This document shows positions 9,557 through 43,471 of a stretch of DNA of 64,000 bases, piece by piece. A program made the translations under genes and the position numbers. The DNA lies in contig NZ_CP012369.1 of the NCBI RefSeq assembly GCF_001267405.1, forward strand, positions 150,001 through 214,000. The letters run 5' to 3'. Every line of letters begins with the position of its first letter. Within the stretch, counting starts at the first letter, position 1. Source of the stretch: Moorella thermoacetica (GTDB lineage: Bacteria > Bacillota > DSM-521 > Neomoorellales > Neomoorellaceae). The notes below the pieces were generated by a model. That model had not been told where the DNA came from. It made no database searches and saw only the letters and a list, made by a program, of their open reading frames with translations.

Positions 9557-9764
9557 AGTAGTTCACTCCTGTCATAAAAAGTTGTCCCCGCTGGCACGCT
9601 CACCACGAGTGCCGGTACCGGACTTCCCGGCAATGCTAGTATTTGCTAAAAGCCGTTAATCTATAGCCGGCGCTCCTGCACCAGCTATAGTGCGCCGGGA
9701 GAAGCTATCAGGGCATAAATGCCGCCGGAACGGCAGGATAATATTATACAGCCCGAAACCGGTA

Positions 9765-36048: not shown

Positions 36049-36825
36049 TTACCGGGACGCGGCGGGGCCCAGGGTACCCAGGAGGCAGAAGGGTTTTTCC
36101 GCCCGGCGCCCCGTGGTCTCCAGGGCGGCCCGGTCGCCGGCGGCGAGGATGCAGGTGGCAGGGCCGGCCGACTTTAGCAGGGCCGGCCCTGTGAGGCCCG
36201 GCCTCCAGTTGATTTGCAGCCCGTATAATGCGGCCAGGTCCCTGGCCTCGGCCAGGATGCCCCTGGAGCCGGCGGGGACGATTTCCCGGATGCCCGGCTG
36301 GTCAAGGAGCAGGCGCACGGTTTTCAGGTCTACGATTTCCGGGTCGTCGAGGAAGACCTCGGTTCCGACCTTGGGCCGTCCGAAGAGGGCCAGGGTATCG
36401 CCGGCAGCCAGGCGTCCCATTAACAGCTCTGCGGTTGTTGCCAGGCCGATGACGGTGATCCCTATCCCGGACTGGGTAGTAGGTATATTTTTTTCGCTGC
36501 TGCCGGTAAGGGTTTTCTCCGGGTCGATGCCCAGGACGCGCATCTCGTCGGCCACACCCTCCCGGATGGCCGCACCTGCAGGCTCCGGCTCGACACAGAG
36601 GGTGTTGACGACGCATACCGGCCAGGCACCTAACGCCAGGACTTCCATCAGGGCCACCCTGGCGGTAAAACGGCCCAGGACGTACCCGGGCACCCGCACC
36701 ACGTCGGCTTCCTTGGGGCCGATGGCCCCGGCGGAGTCGCAGGCGATCACCAGGGATCTTTGCGCATCCAGGTCCAGGATGGTCAAGTCCCGGTAGCGGC
36801 GGGGGGAAAGGGTGGCCGGGGTCAT
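36049..36825 (-). CDS. cblS: Alpha-ribazole kinase CblS (AIR synthase-like)
   Basis: A 258-residue protein of the PurM/AIRS fold. In Listeria and Geobacillus CblS phosphorylates imported alpha-ribazole for the lower ligand of cobalamin. Visible here: LVIACDSAGAIGPKEADVV (the metal/ATP Asp loop) near residues 25-43 and a glycine-rich QSGIGITVIGLA near 118-129. The start overlaps the cblT stop by 4 bases. Regulation by a cobalamin riboswitch upstream supports the assignment; the name rests on family plus context. Confidence 0.8.
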   Translation of the reverse strand: MTPATLSPRRYRDLTILDLDAQRSLVIACDSAGAIGPKEADVVRVPGYVLGRFTARVALMEVLALGAWPVCVVNTLCVEPEPAGAAIREGVADEMRVLGIDPEKTLTGSSEKNIPTTQSGIGITVIGLATTAELLMGRLAAGDTLALFGRPKVGTEVFLDDPEIVDLKTVRLLLDQPGIREIVPAGSRGILAEARDLAALYGLQINWRPGLTGPALLKSAGPATCILAAGDRAALETTGRRAEKPFCLLGTLGPAASR

Positions 36826-37376
36826 TTGCCTTCACCTTTCCCCCGGCCGGCGGCATAGCTGGCGGGAAATACCCGGCGCAGGCTGGTGAAGGCCGTCGCG
36901 GCCAGGACGATGTTCAGGGCGGAAGCGATCAGCAGGGGCACCACCATGGCCAGGAAGAATGCTTTGCCGAACCCCGGCAGGGGGATGAACAGCGCCGGGA
37001 GTAAGAGACCGTTGAGGGCTATTCCCGCTGCTATCCCCAGCCAGGGGGAAAAGCGGTAGAAAATGGCAAAGAGGGCGACGACAGCGGCCATGCCGGCGGC
37101 AATAACCAGGTGGAGGGGCGGGGTGAGGGGGAACCCGGCGGTAAAGGCGGTGAGCAGGTGCCCCAGGGCTGCTATCAGGGCCCCGTCGGCGGGACCCAGG
37201 ATGAGGGCGCCGAGAAAGCCGGGAAAAGAATCGAAGGCCGGGGTGCCGGTGATGCTGGGTATTTTTAGATTGGCGCCCACAGTTGACAGGGCGATGAGCA
37301 TGGCCAGGGTGGCCAGGCGTCTGGCCGTCCAGCGGCTTGCCTTAACGGCCGGGGAGGAAAGTTCCGGTTTTGCCAT
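36822..37376 (-). CDS. cblT: Alpha-ribazole ECF transporter S component CblT
   Basis: A 184-residue membrane protein with about five or six hydrophobic helices, typical of ECF substrate-binding subunits. LSTVGANLKIPSITGTPAFDS and LGALILGPADGALIAALGH are family-like motifs. It needs an EcfAA'T energising module encoded elsewhere. ATG has AAAGGAG eight bases before it. It is the first gene behind the cobalamin riboswitch and terminator. Confidence 0.82.
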   Translation of the reverse strand: MAKPELSSPAVKASRWTARRLATLAMLIALSTVGANLKIPSITGTPAFDSFPGFLGALILGPADGALIAALGHLLTAFTAGFPLTPPLHLVIAAGMAAVVALFAIFYRFSPWLGIAAGIALNGLLLPALFIPLPGFGKAFFLAMVVPLLIASALNIVLAATAFTSLRRVFPASYAAGRGKGEGK

Positions 37377-37437
37377 GTTTGCTTCTCCTTTCTAAAGAAG
37401 ATTTTGTCAGGGGCGAAATGGGGCCGGGCCACCCGCA

Positions 37438-37475
37438 ACAAAAAAGTCCCCAGCCGTCTACCGGCTGGGGACTTT
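37438..37475 (-). terminator. Riboswitch-controlled terminator before cblT
   Basis: A perfect 14-bp stem (37443-37456 with 37462-37475), loop of 5, and a U run on the minus-strand transcript (A run 37438-37445 on the plus strand). It lies between the riboswitch aptamer and the genes, so it is the expected off-switch when cobalamin binds. Confidence 0.92.
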
Positions 37476-37528
37476 ACCATCATCCCCGGTTGCTTCTCCC
37501 CTTTCCTGGCGAAGGTGAGAGGTCATAT

Positions 37529-37704
37529 GGACAGGCAGGTCTCCTGGCTCGCGCTTCCTTGTTTAGCGATGCCTTCCCGGGAACTATCCCAGTGGCGTTA
37601 TATCGCCAACTCCACGCTCACAGTGGCGGGACCGCGCCGGATCGCCGCCTGAAAAGGCGGTTACCGGACTTCCCTATTCTCCCCCTCCCGGGGGCACCTG
37701 TCCA
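37529..37704 (-). promoter_or_regulatory. Cobalamin (B12) riboswitch
   Basis: On the minus strand the conserved blocks appear in order: an opening stem near 37704, GGTCCCGCCACTGTGA near 37640-37625, GCCACTGGGA near 37597-37588, GGGAAGGC near 37577-37570, and the B12 box GAGCCAGGAGACCTGCC at 37550-37534. The terminator at 37438-37475 follows. Control of cblT-cblS by adenosylcobalamin is expected. Confidence 0.95.
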
Positions 37705-37913
37705 TTTTTTTCATATATGGTTGTCAATTATTAATATAATCCACCACCGGGCTTTTGGCAAGCCCTGTTTCCGAAAGTAAGCCCGGGAAAGACTTCCCGG
37801 GGGCAGGTAGCCGCACCCCCGCCTTTGGGTGTACTGGAACTCCAATCAATTGGTAGCTTACCTGATACAGATACCCTTATAAAACCACGGGACTAACCCT
37901 AGAAGAGATAAAC
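37705..37913. other. Intergenic stretch between riboswitch and amtB terminator
   Basis: No gene. It should hold the promoter of the cblTS transcript at its left end (AT-rich 37705-37742). It also has a hairpin CCCGGGAAAGACTTCCCGGG (37782-37801) and a partly complementary GGTAGC/GCTTACC pair (37808-37863). The structure is not recognised. Confidence 0.35.
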
Positions 37914-37964: not shown

Positions 37965-39449
37965 TTATTCCTGGCGGAAAAGACCGGTTCCGGCCGGGTT
38001 ACCCTGGCTCACCATCCAATTTACCGCCAGTTCTCCCGGGGCGGTAACCCGTTTACCCTCTGCTACCTCCAGGGCTGCCAGGCCGGTGTCGGGATAGGCG
38101 CTTTCGCCGTGCTGGGAGAGATCCAGGCCGGCTTCCTCTTCCTCGGCTGTGACCCGCAGAGGTGTCAACAGGGAGACGACCTTGAGAATGCCGTAGGTCA
38201 CTGCGGCGGTAAAGATCCAGGCCGCCGCCACGCCTACCACCTGTACCCCCAGCAAATGGGCGTTGCCGTAAAGCAGGCCGTCGGCCCCGGCGGGGTTCAC
38301 GGCTTTGGTGGCAAAGATGCCGGTGGCAATGGCCCCCCAGGTACCGCCGACGCCGTGGCAGCCAAAGGCGTCCAGGGAATCGTCGTAGCCCAGTTTAACC
38401 TTGGCCACGGCCACTGACAGGCAACAAAGGGCGCCGCCGATACCGCCGATTACCAGGGCCGCCGGGGGAGTGACGAAACCGGCCGCCGGGGTGATGGCGA
38501 CCAGGCCTGCCACCGCGCCGCTGGCCGCTCCCAGGGCGGTGGGTTTGCCGTGGAGCAGCCACTCTACCGCCAGCCAGCCCAGGATGGCGGCCCCGGCAGC
38601 CGTATTGGTAGTGACGAAGGCGTTACCGGCCAGACCGTTGGCCCCTAGGGCGCTGCCGGCATTAAAACCGAACCAGCCGAACCATAACAGCGCGGCGCCC
38701 AAAACGGTCATGGGGAGGTTGTGGGGCGGCAGGGGGATCCGGCCGTAATCCCGCCGGCGTCCCAGGACCAGGGCGCAGACCAGCCCGGCCACGCCGGCGC
38801 TGATATGCACCACCGTGCCGCCGGCAAAGTCCAGGGCGCCGAGTTCCCGCAGCCAGCCCCCCGCGCCCCAGACCCAGTGGGCCAGGGGGTCATAGACCAG
38901 GGTAGCCCACATTAAGGTAAAGAGCAGGAAGGCCGGGAAGCGCATTCGCTCGGCAAAGGCACCGGTTATCAGGGCCGGGGTGATTATTGCGAACATGAGC
39001 TGGAACATGGCGAATACCTGGTGGGGGATGGTGGCGGCGTAAAGGGGATTGGGTTCCAGACCGACGCCCCGGAACCCCGCCCAGTCCAGCCCTCCCAGCA
39101 GGTGGAGATGGTCGGGACCAAAGGCCAGGGAATAGCCCCACAGGACCCACTGGACGGAAATAAGGGCCAGAGTGGCCAGGCATTGCATGATGATACCCAG
39201 GACGTTCTTCTGGCGGACCATACCGCCGTAAAAGAAGGCCAGGCCGGGGGTCATCAACATGACCAGGGCGCTGGCTACTAAGATAAAAGCGGTATCGCCG
39301 GTATCAACCGCGTCCCCGGCTGCCGCCAGCGCCGGCCGGGCCAGGACGGTCCCGGCAGCCAGGAACAATAATAGTAAAAAAGCTGTTTCTACTGGCCGGA
39401 GCAGGATGTTTGACCTGCCCCTTACGTCGCTGACATTCCTTTGCTTCAA
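37965..39449 (-). CDS. amtB: Ammonium transporter AmtB
   Basis: A 494-residue membrane protein with a signal-like first segment and eleven further helices. Family motifs: LVMLMTPGLAFFYGGMVR, WFGWFGFNAGSALGANG, and FGCHGVGGTWGAIATGIFA containing a pore-region histidine. The start is TTG 39449, just after GAAGGAGGGC; the longer frame from 39554 crosses the leader terminator. It is divergent from the PII gene glnB, its usual partner. The leader contains an ANTAR-like two-hairpin element and a terminator, so expression is probably controlled by antitermination. Confidence 0.94.
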   Translation of the reverse strand: MKQRNVSDVRGRSNILLRPVETAFLLLLFLAAGTVLARPALAAAGDAVDTGDTAFILVASALVMLMTPGLAFFYGGMVRQKNVLGIIMQCLATLALISVQWVLWGYSLAFGPDHLHLLGGLDWAGFRGVGLEPNPLYAATIPHQVFAMFQLMFAIITPALITGAFAERMRFPAFLLFTLMWATLVYDPLAHWVWGAGGWLRELGALDFAGGTVVHISAGVAGLVCALVLGRRRDYGRIPLPPHNLPMTVLGAALLWFGWFGFNAGSALGANGLAGNAFVTTNTAAGAAILGWLAVEWLLHGKPTALGAASGAVAGLVAITPAAGFVTPPAALVIGGIGGALCCLSVAVAKVKLGYDDSLDAFGCHGVGGTWGAIATGIFATKAVNPAGADGLLYGNAHLLGVQVVGVAAAWIFTAAVTYGILKVVSLLTPLRVTAEEEEAGLDLSQHGESAYPDTGLAALEVAEGKRVTAPGELAVNWMVSQGNPAGTGLFRQE

Positions 39450-39474
39450 ACCATTGCCCTCCTTCAGTCTGTAA

Positions 39475-39512
39475 TAAAAAAGGCACAGGAGACGGGTTAT
39501 CTCCTGTGCCTT
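39475..39512 (-). terminator. Leader terminator of amtB
   Basis: On the minus strand AAGGCACAGGAGA pairs perfectly with TCTCCTGTGCCTT (39512-39500 with 39492-39480), 7-nt loop, followed by a U run. It is 26 bases upstream of the TTG start, so it works as an attenuator. Its 5' arm is shared with hairpin P2. Confidence 0.92.
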
Positions 39513-39552
39513 CTTTGGCGACCCCCTGGTTACACCGTTGTAACTAGGGATC
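39506..39552 (-). promoter_or_regulatory. ANTAR-type antitermination target (two hexaloop hairpins) in the amtB leader
   Basis: On the minus strand, P1 (39552-39520) has stem GTTAC/GTAAC extended by CCCT/AGGG and the hexaloop AACGGT. P2 (39522-39506) has stem GCC/GGC with outer GT/AC across a bulge and the hexaloop AAAGAA. Both loops have A at position 1 and G at position 4, the known ANTAR recognition rule. The 3' arm of P2 (GGCAC) is the first part of the terminator stem, so P2 and the terminator exclude each other. No ANTAR gene lies in the window. Confidence 0.75.
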
Positions 39553-39575
39553 AAATAAAATAAATTGTTAACATC

Positions 39576-39604
39576 ATTCTACCTTAGGATCCTTGCCGCG
39601 TCAA
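39576..39604 (-). promoter_or_regulatory. Sigma-A promoter of amtB
   Basis: On the minus strand -35 TTGACG (39604-39599), 17-bp spacer and -10 TAGAAT (39581-39576). Transcription would begin near 39569, giving a leader of about 120 nt that contains P1, P2 and the terminator. Confidence 0.75.
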
Positions 39605-39816: not shown

Positions 39817-40176
<360 letters not shown>

Positions 40177-40754: not shown

Positions 40755-40782
40755 TATAGCCGCCGGCTTTTCGGCGGCTATA
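40755..40782. terminator. Shared hairpin terminator between convergent genes
   Basis: TATAGCCGCC (40755-40764) pairs with GGCGGCTATA (40773-40782). It lies between the BON gene and the convergent vapC and overlaps the vapC stop; flanking T and A tracts are weak. Confidence 0.5.
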
Positions 40783-41218
40783 GATTTAGCGGGGTAGCAT
40801 TGCCTATCCAGATTACCTCGAAACCAAGTTTTGGTGCCAACTTGCGGATTTCCGGATCACCAGTAATAATCGGTGCCTGTAGCTCTTGAGCCAGGGAAAC
40901 AACGAAAGAATCAGCATAGGATAATCCCCCGCCGGCTTTTATCCGTGCCGCCTCTTTAATCCTCGTCCAGGGACATTCAATTAGAGTTATACCTTCATCG
41001 GCAAAAATGGTTTCGACCAATTCAGCGGCAGCCTTTTCGCCTTTTTTCCTCAGGAGCATATAGTAGGCCTCGCCCAGATTGATAAGGCTTAAGAAGCTCA
41101 TATTATTATCATCACTTATAATATCTGCTATTATCTGGGCGCCTGGTTCCTCTTCCAGCAAAGCCAGGAGGGCGTATGTGTCAAGAACAAATTTTCCTGC
41201 TTCCATGTAGCTATTCAT
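40778..41218 (-). CDS. vapC: PIN-domain toxin VapC
   Basis: A 146-residue RNase toxin. FVLDTYALLALLEEE near residue 10, NLGEAYYMLL near 46, GLSYADSFVVSLAQE near 98-112 and IITGDPEIRKL near 116-126 give the PIN acidic residues. It starts within the last codons of the AbrB-type antitoxin gene (4-base overlap), the standard coupling. It lies outside the main accessory island. Confidence 0.9.
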   Translation of the reverse strand: MNSYMEAGKFVLDTYALLALLEEEPGAQIIADIISDDNNMSFLSLINLGEAYYMLLRKKGEKAAAELVETIFADEGITLIECPWTRIKEAARIKAGGGLSYADSFVVSLAQELQAPIITGDPEIRKLAPKLGFEVIWIGNATPLNL

Positions 41219-41463
41219 CCTTTTTCCCGGAAGCGCTCAGCAGTTCTTTCTTTTATCAAGACTGTAGTAAGCTTATCTTTAGGACTGCTGCTTTTATATT
41301 TACCGCGGAGCGCGAGAAAGGGATGTCTGGGAAGCGGTCGTAGGGTTATAATACCGTTATTATCTTCTACTGCAAGCTGATCCCCTTTTTTTAAACCATA
41401 GTTTTTACGTATCTCCAGGGGAATAACGATTTGTCCCTTTTGGGAAACGGTTATTTTATACAC
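41215..41463 (-). CDS. vapB: AbrB/MazE-fold antitoxin
   Basis: An 82-residue SpoVT-AbrB swapped-hairpin protein: ITVSQKGQIVIPLEIRKNYG then KKGDQLAVEDNNGIITLRPL. The C-terminal tail (LTTVLIKERTAERFREKG) would bind the toxin. It starts with GTG. Confidence 0.9.
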   Translation of the reverse strand: MYKITVSQKGQIVIPLEIRKNYGLKKGDQLAVEDNNGIITLRPLPRHPFLALRGKYKSSSPKDKLTTVLIKERTAERFREKG

Positions 41464-41500: not shown

Positions 41501-43471
41501 TTATACTACTAAGGGGGGCGCCTGTAAATAATATACCCTTGTCTCACTTCCAGGGGGACCGTAGTAAAAGAAGACTATGGTAGGGTTGTCTTCTTCCGGC
41601 CTTTCCGGGTGGCAGGGGAAGAGTTCGATAAAGCCGTGGCGGCGTAAATTTGCCGGGGATTCTTTCACCAGCCCCGGCATATATTTTTCCATGGAGCGGG
41701 GAGTGGTTATCCGCGCCATCCAGTTTGAACGCTCCTCCTCCGTCAAGGGCGAGGGCGGCATCCAGCCCGGGAAATTGCGGCTGCGGTCGCGGCAGAGGCA
41801 GTCGAATTTAAGGAGCTGGTAGAAGCGGTCCAGCTGGGCCGGCGTCAGGTTGCGGGCGCACCCCGAGTGTTCTGCTCCGGAGGCGGGGGTATCGCCGTGG
41901 CTGTTTATCTCAAGAATGCTATCATGATAGCCAGGTAAGGGCGGTACGGTAACCCTTGTGGCGATCCCCCGGGCCAGGTGGATGGCGAAGGAGGCCAGGT
42001 GGTTGAAGAGATCCTGCTGGCTGTGGCCCCGGCGCAGGAGGCCCCGGGCCTCCCACCAGGCGGCCAGGGCCTCGTAGATGGCGAAGTAGCTGCCGTCAAA
42101 GGCGGTGGCGGCCAGGTAGGCAAAAGCGTGGTCGGCCAGGTGGCTGTTGCCGTAATACTTAAGGAGGCCTTCAATGGCGTGGAGGCGCAGCATCTCCTCG
42201 TAGGTGATGGCGCTGCTGGCCAGGACCTGGTAGGGCGGCCGGTCGAGGAAGAGGTAGCCGAACTCATCGGCCCGGGCGCGCAGGGTCGTGCCTTTCAGGA
42301 GTTTCAGAAAACCGAGCTGGATCTCGTGGGGTTTCAGGGCCACTACGGCGTCGAAGCTTTCGCCGACTCCTGCGTAAGTCTCCCCGGGCAGGCCGGCGAT
42401 GAGGTCCAGGTGCAGGCGGATGCTGCCCATCTCCCGCAGGCGGCGGGTGTTGGCAGCCAGGCGGGCCCAGTCCTGGCGGCGATTGCAGCGGGCGTTCACC
42501 CCGGCATCGATGGTCTGGACGCCGATTTCGAACTGGAACAGATCCGGCGGCACCCGGTTGAGATGGGCCAGCATCTCTTCGTCCAGGCGGTCGCCGGCGA
42601 TTTCAAAGTAACAACGGGCGCGGGGCCTGCGGGAAAGGAGGAACTCCCAGATGGCCAGGGCCCTTTTTTTATGGGCGTTAAAGGTGCGGTCGACGAACTT
42701 GATCTCCCGGACGCCGGCCTTGAGCAGGCGTTCCAGGTCGTCCCGGACACGCTCCAGGGAGAAGTAGCGCAGGCCCTCCGTGGTGGATGAGAGGCAGAAA
42801 CCGCAGGCGAAGGGGCAGCCGCGGGAGGTTTCGTAGTATACCGTGCGCTGGCTGAGTTCGTTGCCGGCGGCGTCCAGGTCTTCCTGGTAGGGGAAGGGTA
42901 TAGTGTCCAGGTCGCGGAGAGGCGGCGCCGGCGGGTTGACGATCGTCTCTGCGCCCCGCCGCCAGGCCAGGCCGGGGATGGCCGCCGGGTCGGGCACAGG
43001 CCCCGGGGCAGGCCTCCCCCCGGCCGGCCGGTACATGGAGGCGGTAAGGGGTTCCTCCCGGTTCCCTGCCGGGGGGCGCTGCTGCCCGGCCAGTTGTTCC
43101 AGGAGGGCACGGAAGGGGATTTCCCCTTCACCGGTGATTACCAGGTCGATCTGGGGGTTTTGCGCTAGAAAAGCGGCCGTATCGAAAGAGACCTCCGGGC
43201 CGCCGCAGAGGATGGTGAGTTCCGGCCGTACTTTCTTAAGAATCGCCGCTACGGCCAGGGTGGGCTCAATGTTCCAGATATAGCAGGAGAAGGCCACCAG
43301 GTCGGGCCGGTGCCGGTAGATGGCGGCGGCGATATGCTCCGGGTGGTCGTTGATGGTGAACTCATCCAGGATAAAGGTGTGGGGCAGGTCGCGGCAGCAG
43401 GCCCGCAGGTAGCGCAGCGCCAGGTTGACGTGGATGTATTTGGCGTTGAGGGTGGTTAACAGGATGCGCAA
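41501..43471 (-). CDS. B12-binding-type radical SAM protein (DUF4080)
   Basis: A 656-residue protein. The N-terminal Rossmann-like cobalamin-binding domain covers about 1-150 (NAKYIHVNLALRYLRACC, then VAFSCYIWNIEPTLA and ILCGGPEVSFD). The radical SAM core has the cluster motif CPFACGFC near residue 218, and the C-terminal part is DUF4080-like. Such enzymes use S-adenosylmethionine radicals, often for methylation or other unusual modifications; the substrate is unknown. It starts with TTG 43471. Confidence 0.87.
   Translation of the reverse strand: MRILLTTLNAKYIHVNLALRYLRACCRDLPHTFILDEFTINDHPEHIAAAIYRHRPDLVAFSCYIWNIEPTLAVAAILKKVRPELTILCGGPEVSFDTAAFLAQNPQIDLVITGEGEIPFRALLEQLAGQQRPPAGNREEPLTASMYRPAGGRPAPGPVPDPAAIPGLAWRRGAETIVNPPAPPLRDLDTIPFPYQEDLDAAGNELSQRTVYYETSRGCPFACGFCLSSTTEGLRYFSLERVRDDLERLLKAGVREIKFVDRTFNAHKKRALAIWEFLLSRRPRARCYFEIAGDRLDEEMLAHLNRVPPDLFQFEIGVQTIDAGVNARCNRRQDWARLAANTRRLREMGSIRLHLDLIAGLPGETYAGVGESFDAVVALKPHEIQLGFLKLLKGTTLRARADEFGYLFLDRPPYQVLASSAITYEEMLRLHAIEGLLKYYGNSHLADHAFAYLAATAFDGSYFAIYEALAAWWEARGLLRRGHSQQDLFNHLASFAIHLARGIATRVTVPPLPGYHDSILEINSHGDTPASGAEHSGCARNLTPAQLDRFYQLLKFDCLCRDRSRNFPGWMPPSPLTEEERSNWMARITTPRSMEKYMPGLVKESPANLRRHGFIELFPCHPERPEEDNPTIVFFYYGPPGSETRVYYLQAPPLVV

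Follow-up and report, generated by a model that had tools for sequence, protein, structure and literature searches.

The amt leader and its surroundings

The window analysed here is a stretch of 64,000 nucleotides of the Moorella thermoacetica genome. Its minus strand carries an ammonium transporter gene, amt (37965–39449; PF00909, 448.6 bits; NCBIfam TIGR00836, 490 bits, above the cut-off), which most likely starts at a TTG codon at 39449, 7 nt past the likely Shine–Dalgarno sequence AAGGAGGG (39457–39464, minus strand). A PII signal protein gene of the glnB/glnK type (39838–40176, plus strand; PF00543, 106.8 bits) diverges from amt and is a neighbor outside the switch described below. Other features surround the pair on the minus strand. 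At 36049–37716, a Cobalamin riboswitch (123 bits) is followed by an ECF transporter S component and an AIR-synthase-like protein, which we take to resemble the CblT–CblS alpha-ribazole salvage pair. A PIN-domain protein with a MazE/AbrB-type partner directly upstream (40778–41463) is probably a toxin–antitoxin pair, and a B12-binding radical SAM protein with DUF4080 lies at 41501–43471.

An earlier reading of this DNA, made from its letters alone (hereafter, the sequence-only reading), had seen at 39475–39604, in 5′→3′ order on the minus strand, a promoter, a hairpin with the hexaloop AACGGT, a hairpin with the hexaloop AAAGAA and a terminator sharing the 3′ arm of the second hairpin. Inspection of the sequence located every one of these elements where that reading had put them. 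The promoter is of the sigma-70 type (TTGACG-17 nt-TAGAAT, 39576–39604), a call made from consensus match only (10/12). The first hairpin, P1 (39520–39552), is seen in the sequence, in the fold and in orthologous leaders of related species. Its outer helix, GATCCCT/AGGGGGTC, encloses the core GTTAC[AACGGT]GTAAC (core 39544–39529, bracketed hexaloop 39539–39534). RNAfold draws P1 with 6 bp and a tetraloop, since the first and last letters of the AACGGT loop, A1 and U6, can pair. The second hairpin, P2, is the putative antiterminator GCC[AAAGAA]GGC (39508–39519, hexaloop 39516–39511). It appears in the nascent fold and is invariant among amt1 leaders, and its stem by itself has just 3 bp.

The terminator (39476–39516) emerges from the minimum free energy fold with 18 predicted pairs, a 5-nt loop and a U-rich 3′ arm (5′ arm 39516–39499, 3′ arm 39493–39476); the segment 39560–39470 folds at −44.4 kcal/mol (z = −7.1). 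The loop and 3′ arm of P2 sit within the 5′ arm of the terminator, and P2 and the terminator are therefore mutually exclusive, as expected from the switch geometry that had been proposed. When the RNA is truncated ahead of the terminator 3′ arm, its minimum free energy fold consists of P1 and P2. The leader has several of the features by which ANTAR targets are recognised: two hexaloop hairpins of at least 3 bp (5 bp plus the outer helix in P1, 3 bp in P2), core stems 2–25 nt apart (here 9 nt, part of it occupied by the outer P1 helix), A1 and G4 in each loop and, as in the attenuating members, an intrinsic terminator overlapping P2.

Conservation of the leader in the family

From the family we took 17 full-length amt genes, picked by amt homology and not by leader, which makes them a fair test. 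They form several paralog groups, down to 38% identity with the window amt. The arrangement of two hexaloop hairpins and a terminator lies upstream of all 17, whereas the same upstream stretches shuffled 300 times gave a mean of 0.01 matches (maximum 1) and the opposite strands gave none. Terminators of 11–19 pairs occupy the same place in each leader and overlap P2. G4 is present in both loops throughout, and position 1 (P1/P2) is A/A in seven leaders, A/G in five, G/A in four and G/G in one. The A1–G4 rule that the sequence-only reading had applied to the loops consequently holds for the window and, in its G4 part, for the whole set, but across the family it has to be widened to purine-1/G4. 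The freedom at position 1 agrees with the EutV–RNA structure, since there A1 makes no specific contact while G4 stacks on Tyr164 (PMC8934654). With the loop letters left unconstrained, G4/G4 was found in 20 of 28 combinations upstream of amt; the window gave 2 of 12.

Loss of the loops or stems in relatives had been named beforehand as grounds for abandoning an ANTAR target; instead, both are kept and the stems change in a compensatory manner. In the alignment, 91.9% of cells are paired, compared with 45% at best after sliding, and both sides of the stem vary in 8 of 10 pairs. There are 38 double-sided changes, a count inflated by the fact that most aligned rows were selected with our descriptor. 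The alignment consists of rows padded in the linker, as the MAFFT version put P1 out of register. Orthologous leaders differ by a paired change in the terminator as well, with GCACAGGAG/CTCCTGTGC in one and GCACTGGAG/CTCCAGGTGT in the other. The small hairpins have different sequences in different paralogs; what is kept are the loop positions and the closing pairs.

Among 18 genomes of the family, 14 have both amt and an ANTAR gene; both are missing from three, of which one is just 58% complete, and one has amt alone. The last is a fragmented assembly of 140 contigs (G015) with the leader and amt present, in which the ANTAR gene was not detected.

These distributions bear on an alternative in which the leader is an ordinary attenuator, or a terminator lying upstream of the gene, and no protein is dedicated to it, the hairpins being accidental and read-through being set by promoter strength or coupling. 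A very stable terminator next to a P2 of only 3 bp is what such an element could look like. Accident would nevertheless have to account for a purine-1/G4 hexaloop pair in fixed order, overlapping a terminator, in every amt leader despite divergent stems, when 0.01 are expected, and for an ANTAR gene in 14 of the 15 genomes with amt. We consider this explanation improbable.

Chance level and covariance models

The descriptor, i.e., two hairpins whose hexaloops have a purine at position 1 and G4, with P2 overlapping a terminator, has a single match on the two strands of the window, the amt leader. Shuffled windows contain 0.24 matches on average. A strict version, which asks for A1 in each of the two loops, a minimum of 5 bp in P1 and a perfect terminator with a minimum of 12 bp, gave no match in 200 shuffles.

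Our own covariance model of the leaders returned three strong sites in a search of the genome, namely, the window amt leader, the leader of glnA and that of an amt2 remnant joined to a second PII gene; all three, or identical copies of them, were within the training set. A model built without the leaders of this genome and close amt1 leaders recovered glnA (E 0.066) and amt2 (E 0.001) and missed the window leader. The remaining matches of the first model (E > 0.8) were not counted, and several of those inspected resemble chance matches inside coding sequences; only one of the weak matches inspected falls in the leader of a nitrogen gene, asnB (1235003). No copy of the leader was found in the plasmid collection.

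A single ANTAR protein with an unusual receiver

The sequence-only reading had also staked itself on the presence of an ANTAR-domain protein in the genome. The genome (2,527,564 bases, one contig) encodes exactly one, which matches PF03861 above the Pfam cut-off (E = 3.2e-23) and consists of a receiver followed by ANTAR. Its gene (1230690–1231313, minus strand, genome coordinates) is flanked by two glnA genes, with glutamate synthase genes downstream. Homology extends over the full length to EutV (6wsh, E 2.1e-27) and Rv1626 (1s8n, E 3e-40). In EutV, Tyr164 is the residue on which G4 stacks and Met172 acts as a hydrophobic plug (PMC8934654). Both align with Tyr164 and Met172 of our protein, by a hand count along the alignment that assumes the EutV chain to be shifted by a tag of 2 residues; on this count, the ANTAR domain here keeps the residues through which EutV touches RNA.

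The receiver is another matter. Its Mg-binding acidic pair is gone in all aligned family members (ACADP, ASADP, VTADK); Asp and Lys are retained, and Thr/Ser is replaced in most members, including this protein, in which a complete active site (acidic pair, Asp, Thr/Ser, Lys) is not found. The sequence-only reading had noted that ANTAR regulators often come with a histidine kinase; a search of the genome with PF07568 gave no match to a partner kinase of the HisKA_2 or PdtaS type. The kinase profile PF12282 was silent even in its control genomes. A receiver without the acidic pair in a genome without a detected HisKA_2 kinase makes a phosphorylation signal doubtful. Judging from the sequence, the signal that reaches the ANTAR protein is probably something other than ordinary phosphorylation.

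Other leaders of the putative regulon

The leader predicted to recur before glnA does exist; both the descriptor and the covariance model find it, and in one further species the same kind of leader precedes a glnA that belongs to another type. The second ammonium transporter gene of this genome, amt2 (about 16005–16860 in L031; 1237005–1237860 in the genome), has suffered an internal loss of about 1.6 kb, with flanks 98–99% identical to a close relative. The deletion joins an ANTAR leader and the 3′ remnant of the gene to a PII gene; a near relative has the gene intact. Besides the antitermination leader, the amt2 leaders of relatives (L015, L018, L021) contain a third hairpin near the start, GTGGGC[AAYGCC]GTCC. 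By inspection, its TGTGGG could instead pair with a CCCACA that overlaps the start codon.

In the interval that separates the ANTAR gene from glnA2 sits another hairpin, AGGGC[AACGGC]GTCCT, strongly conserved across several genera. The copy in this genome is at 1230631–1230644 on the minus strand (genome coordinates; the same site in L091 and, at about 9632–9645, in L031), and further copies are present in the relatives L139, L143, L148, L129 and L134. It is often accompanied by a terminator with the 5′ arm GCGTCCTG, and in several cases the 3′ arm of the hairpin supplies the 5′ arm of a strong terminator. It has no match in Rfam and seems, from its sequence, to be a lone hexaloop of the ANTAR type for which no clear P1 can be made out. 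The same 14-mer recurs, either unchanged or with a single letter altered, about 72 nt ahead of asnB, behind a P1-like hairpin, and also ahead of the ANTAR gene itself in some genomes. In another genus of the family, a further dual-hairpin and terminator leader of the ANTAR type was seen downstream of amt (L007 about 3354, L008 about 3264, plus strand).

The asnB leaders (in this genome, L031 13990–14115; also L127, L132, L144 and L147) carry two hexaloop hairpins, AAGGGN and AACGNC, and the terminator is absent. The predicted fold in several species has the 3′ arm of P1 paired with the Shine–Dalgarno region. Hairpins of the ANTAR type beside the ribosome-binding site make the asnB and amt2 leaders more unusual than the window leader, and these predicted pairings suggest translational activation by ANTAR. 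ANTAR RNAs that overlap ribosome-binding sites and repress are known in mycobacteria (PMC8164766), and Ramesh et al. 2012 (PMC3369931) mention ANTAR RNA matches close to such sites.

Discussion

We propose that the leader is an ANTAR-controlled transcription attenuator of the ammonium transporter gene, a reading that we hold with a probability of about 90%. ANTAR control of ammonium uptake, as originally suggested from the sequence, thereby gains the support of comparison across the family. From the anatomy of the leader, its conservation, the pattern of the regulon and the one ANTAR protein, in which the residues that contact RNA are conserved, we infer the binding of that protein, antitermination, the direction of the response and its signal as follows. 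Transcription would start about 120 nt upstream of amt, and P1 and P2 would fold first in the nascent RNA. If the regulator is missing, the terminator would capture the loop and 3′ arm of P2 and transcription would stop before amt. Under nitrogen shortage, the receiver–ANTAR protein encoded beside glnA would bind both hexaloops as a dimer, with the two G4s as the main contact, and would keep P2 closed, such that the terminator is blocked and amt is made. Glutamine synthetase (glnA) and other nitrogen genes with the same leader would be made alongside.

It could also be argued that ANTAR binding at the amt leader represses, or acts on translation, since in mycobacteria such binding does repress translation (PMC8164766). 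P2, however, overlaps the terminator and not the ribosome-binding site at 39464–39457, which is the geometry of the activating EutV, AmiR and NasR systems, and we find this variant very improbable. A metabolite riboswitch, or an attenuator bound by some other protein (T-box, LicT/SacY-type RAT), with two hexaloop hairpins by coincidence, is the least credible candidate: it shares with the leader only the general attenuation geometry, common to all those systems, no tool result speaks for it, no Rfam family reaches its gathering score at the window leader (relaxed thresholds bring chance matches of the microRNA type only), and small hairpins that vary between paralogs while keeping loop positions and closing pairs fit recognition of the loops by a protein better than they fit a pocket for a ligand.

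ANTAR-controlled attenuation of amt, as we read it, joins a known type of nitrogen control, of which this leader is a sound fresh example. Ramesh et al. 2012 (PMC3369931) already predicted ANTAR RNAs ahead of nitrogen genes, those for ammonium transporters included, and ammonium transporters and PII are among their targets overall. Its Figure 9 gives predicted nitrogen regulons for Desulfotomaculum acetoxidans, with six nitrogen transcriptional units, and for D. reducens, with an ANTAR RNA before glutamate synthase. Those regulons likewise place ANTAR RNAs before nitrogen genes in Gram-positive anaerobes, of a lineage different from the one studied here. Titles retrieved from the literature for Moorella together with ANTAR look like spurious matches (“Antarctic”).

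The targets of EutV (Enterococcus faecalis eutP), NasR (Klebsiella nasF) and AmiR (Pseudomonas amiE) have, according to Ramesh et al. (PMC3369931), the same hexaloop hairpins with G4, mostly A1 and a short linker. Those systems share with ours the overlap of P2 with the terminator and a receiver–ANTAR protein in the genome; ours differs in that the target is amt, that loop position 1 is A or G in relatives, and that the receiver of the regulator has neither the acidic pair nor a recognised partner. Nearer in function is the clostridial NitR, an ANTAR-type antiterminator of ammonia assimilation according to a citation in PMC4676874. NitR is a receiver–ANTAR protein tied to ammonia assimilation, and the gene described here stands beside glnA and glutamate synthase genes. 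The NitR system of C. acetobutylicum also includes an antisense RNA, according to PMC4676874. For the receiver, the closest precedents are ANTAR proteins switched by a bound partner, namely AmiR, a pseudo-receiver controlled by AmiC that cannot be phosphorylated (PMC8934654), and NasT, controlled by NasS. In contrast to both, the neighbors classified here are of the glnA, glutamate synthase and asnB types and not an AmiC- or NasS-like sensor.

A bolder picture can be drawn, to which we give limited credence and which strikes us as rather unlikely in its entirety. A single pseudo-receiver ANTAR protein, which a nitrogen sensor (e.g., glutamine synthetase or PII) would switch by touching it directly and with no kinase, may run the whole nitrogen regulon in two ways, by relief of the terminator at amt and glnA and by freeing a ribosome-binding site paired with an ANTAR hairpin arm at asnB and amt2. 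The latter would be ANTAR-dependent activation of translation.

The apparent pseudo-receiver and its sensor are the part of this system most deserving of specialist attention. With a receiver seemingly unable to be phosphorylated in the normal way, nitrogen sensing by ANTAR proteins linked to glnA becomes directly testable. More broadly, the family allows nitrogen control by RNA attenuation to be compared cleanly within a lineage of acetogens, and a single ANTAR protein with a small, defined regulon makes the whole circuit testable in one organism.
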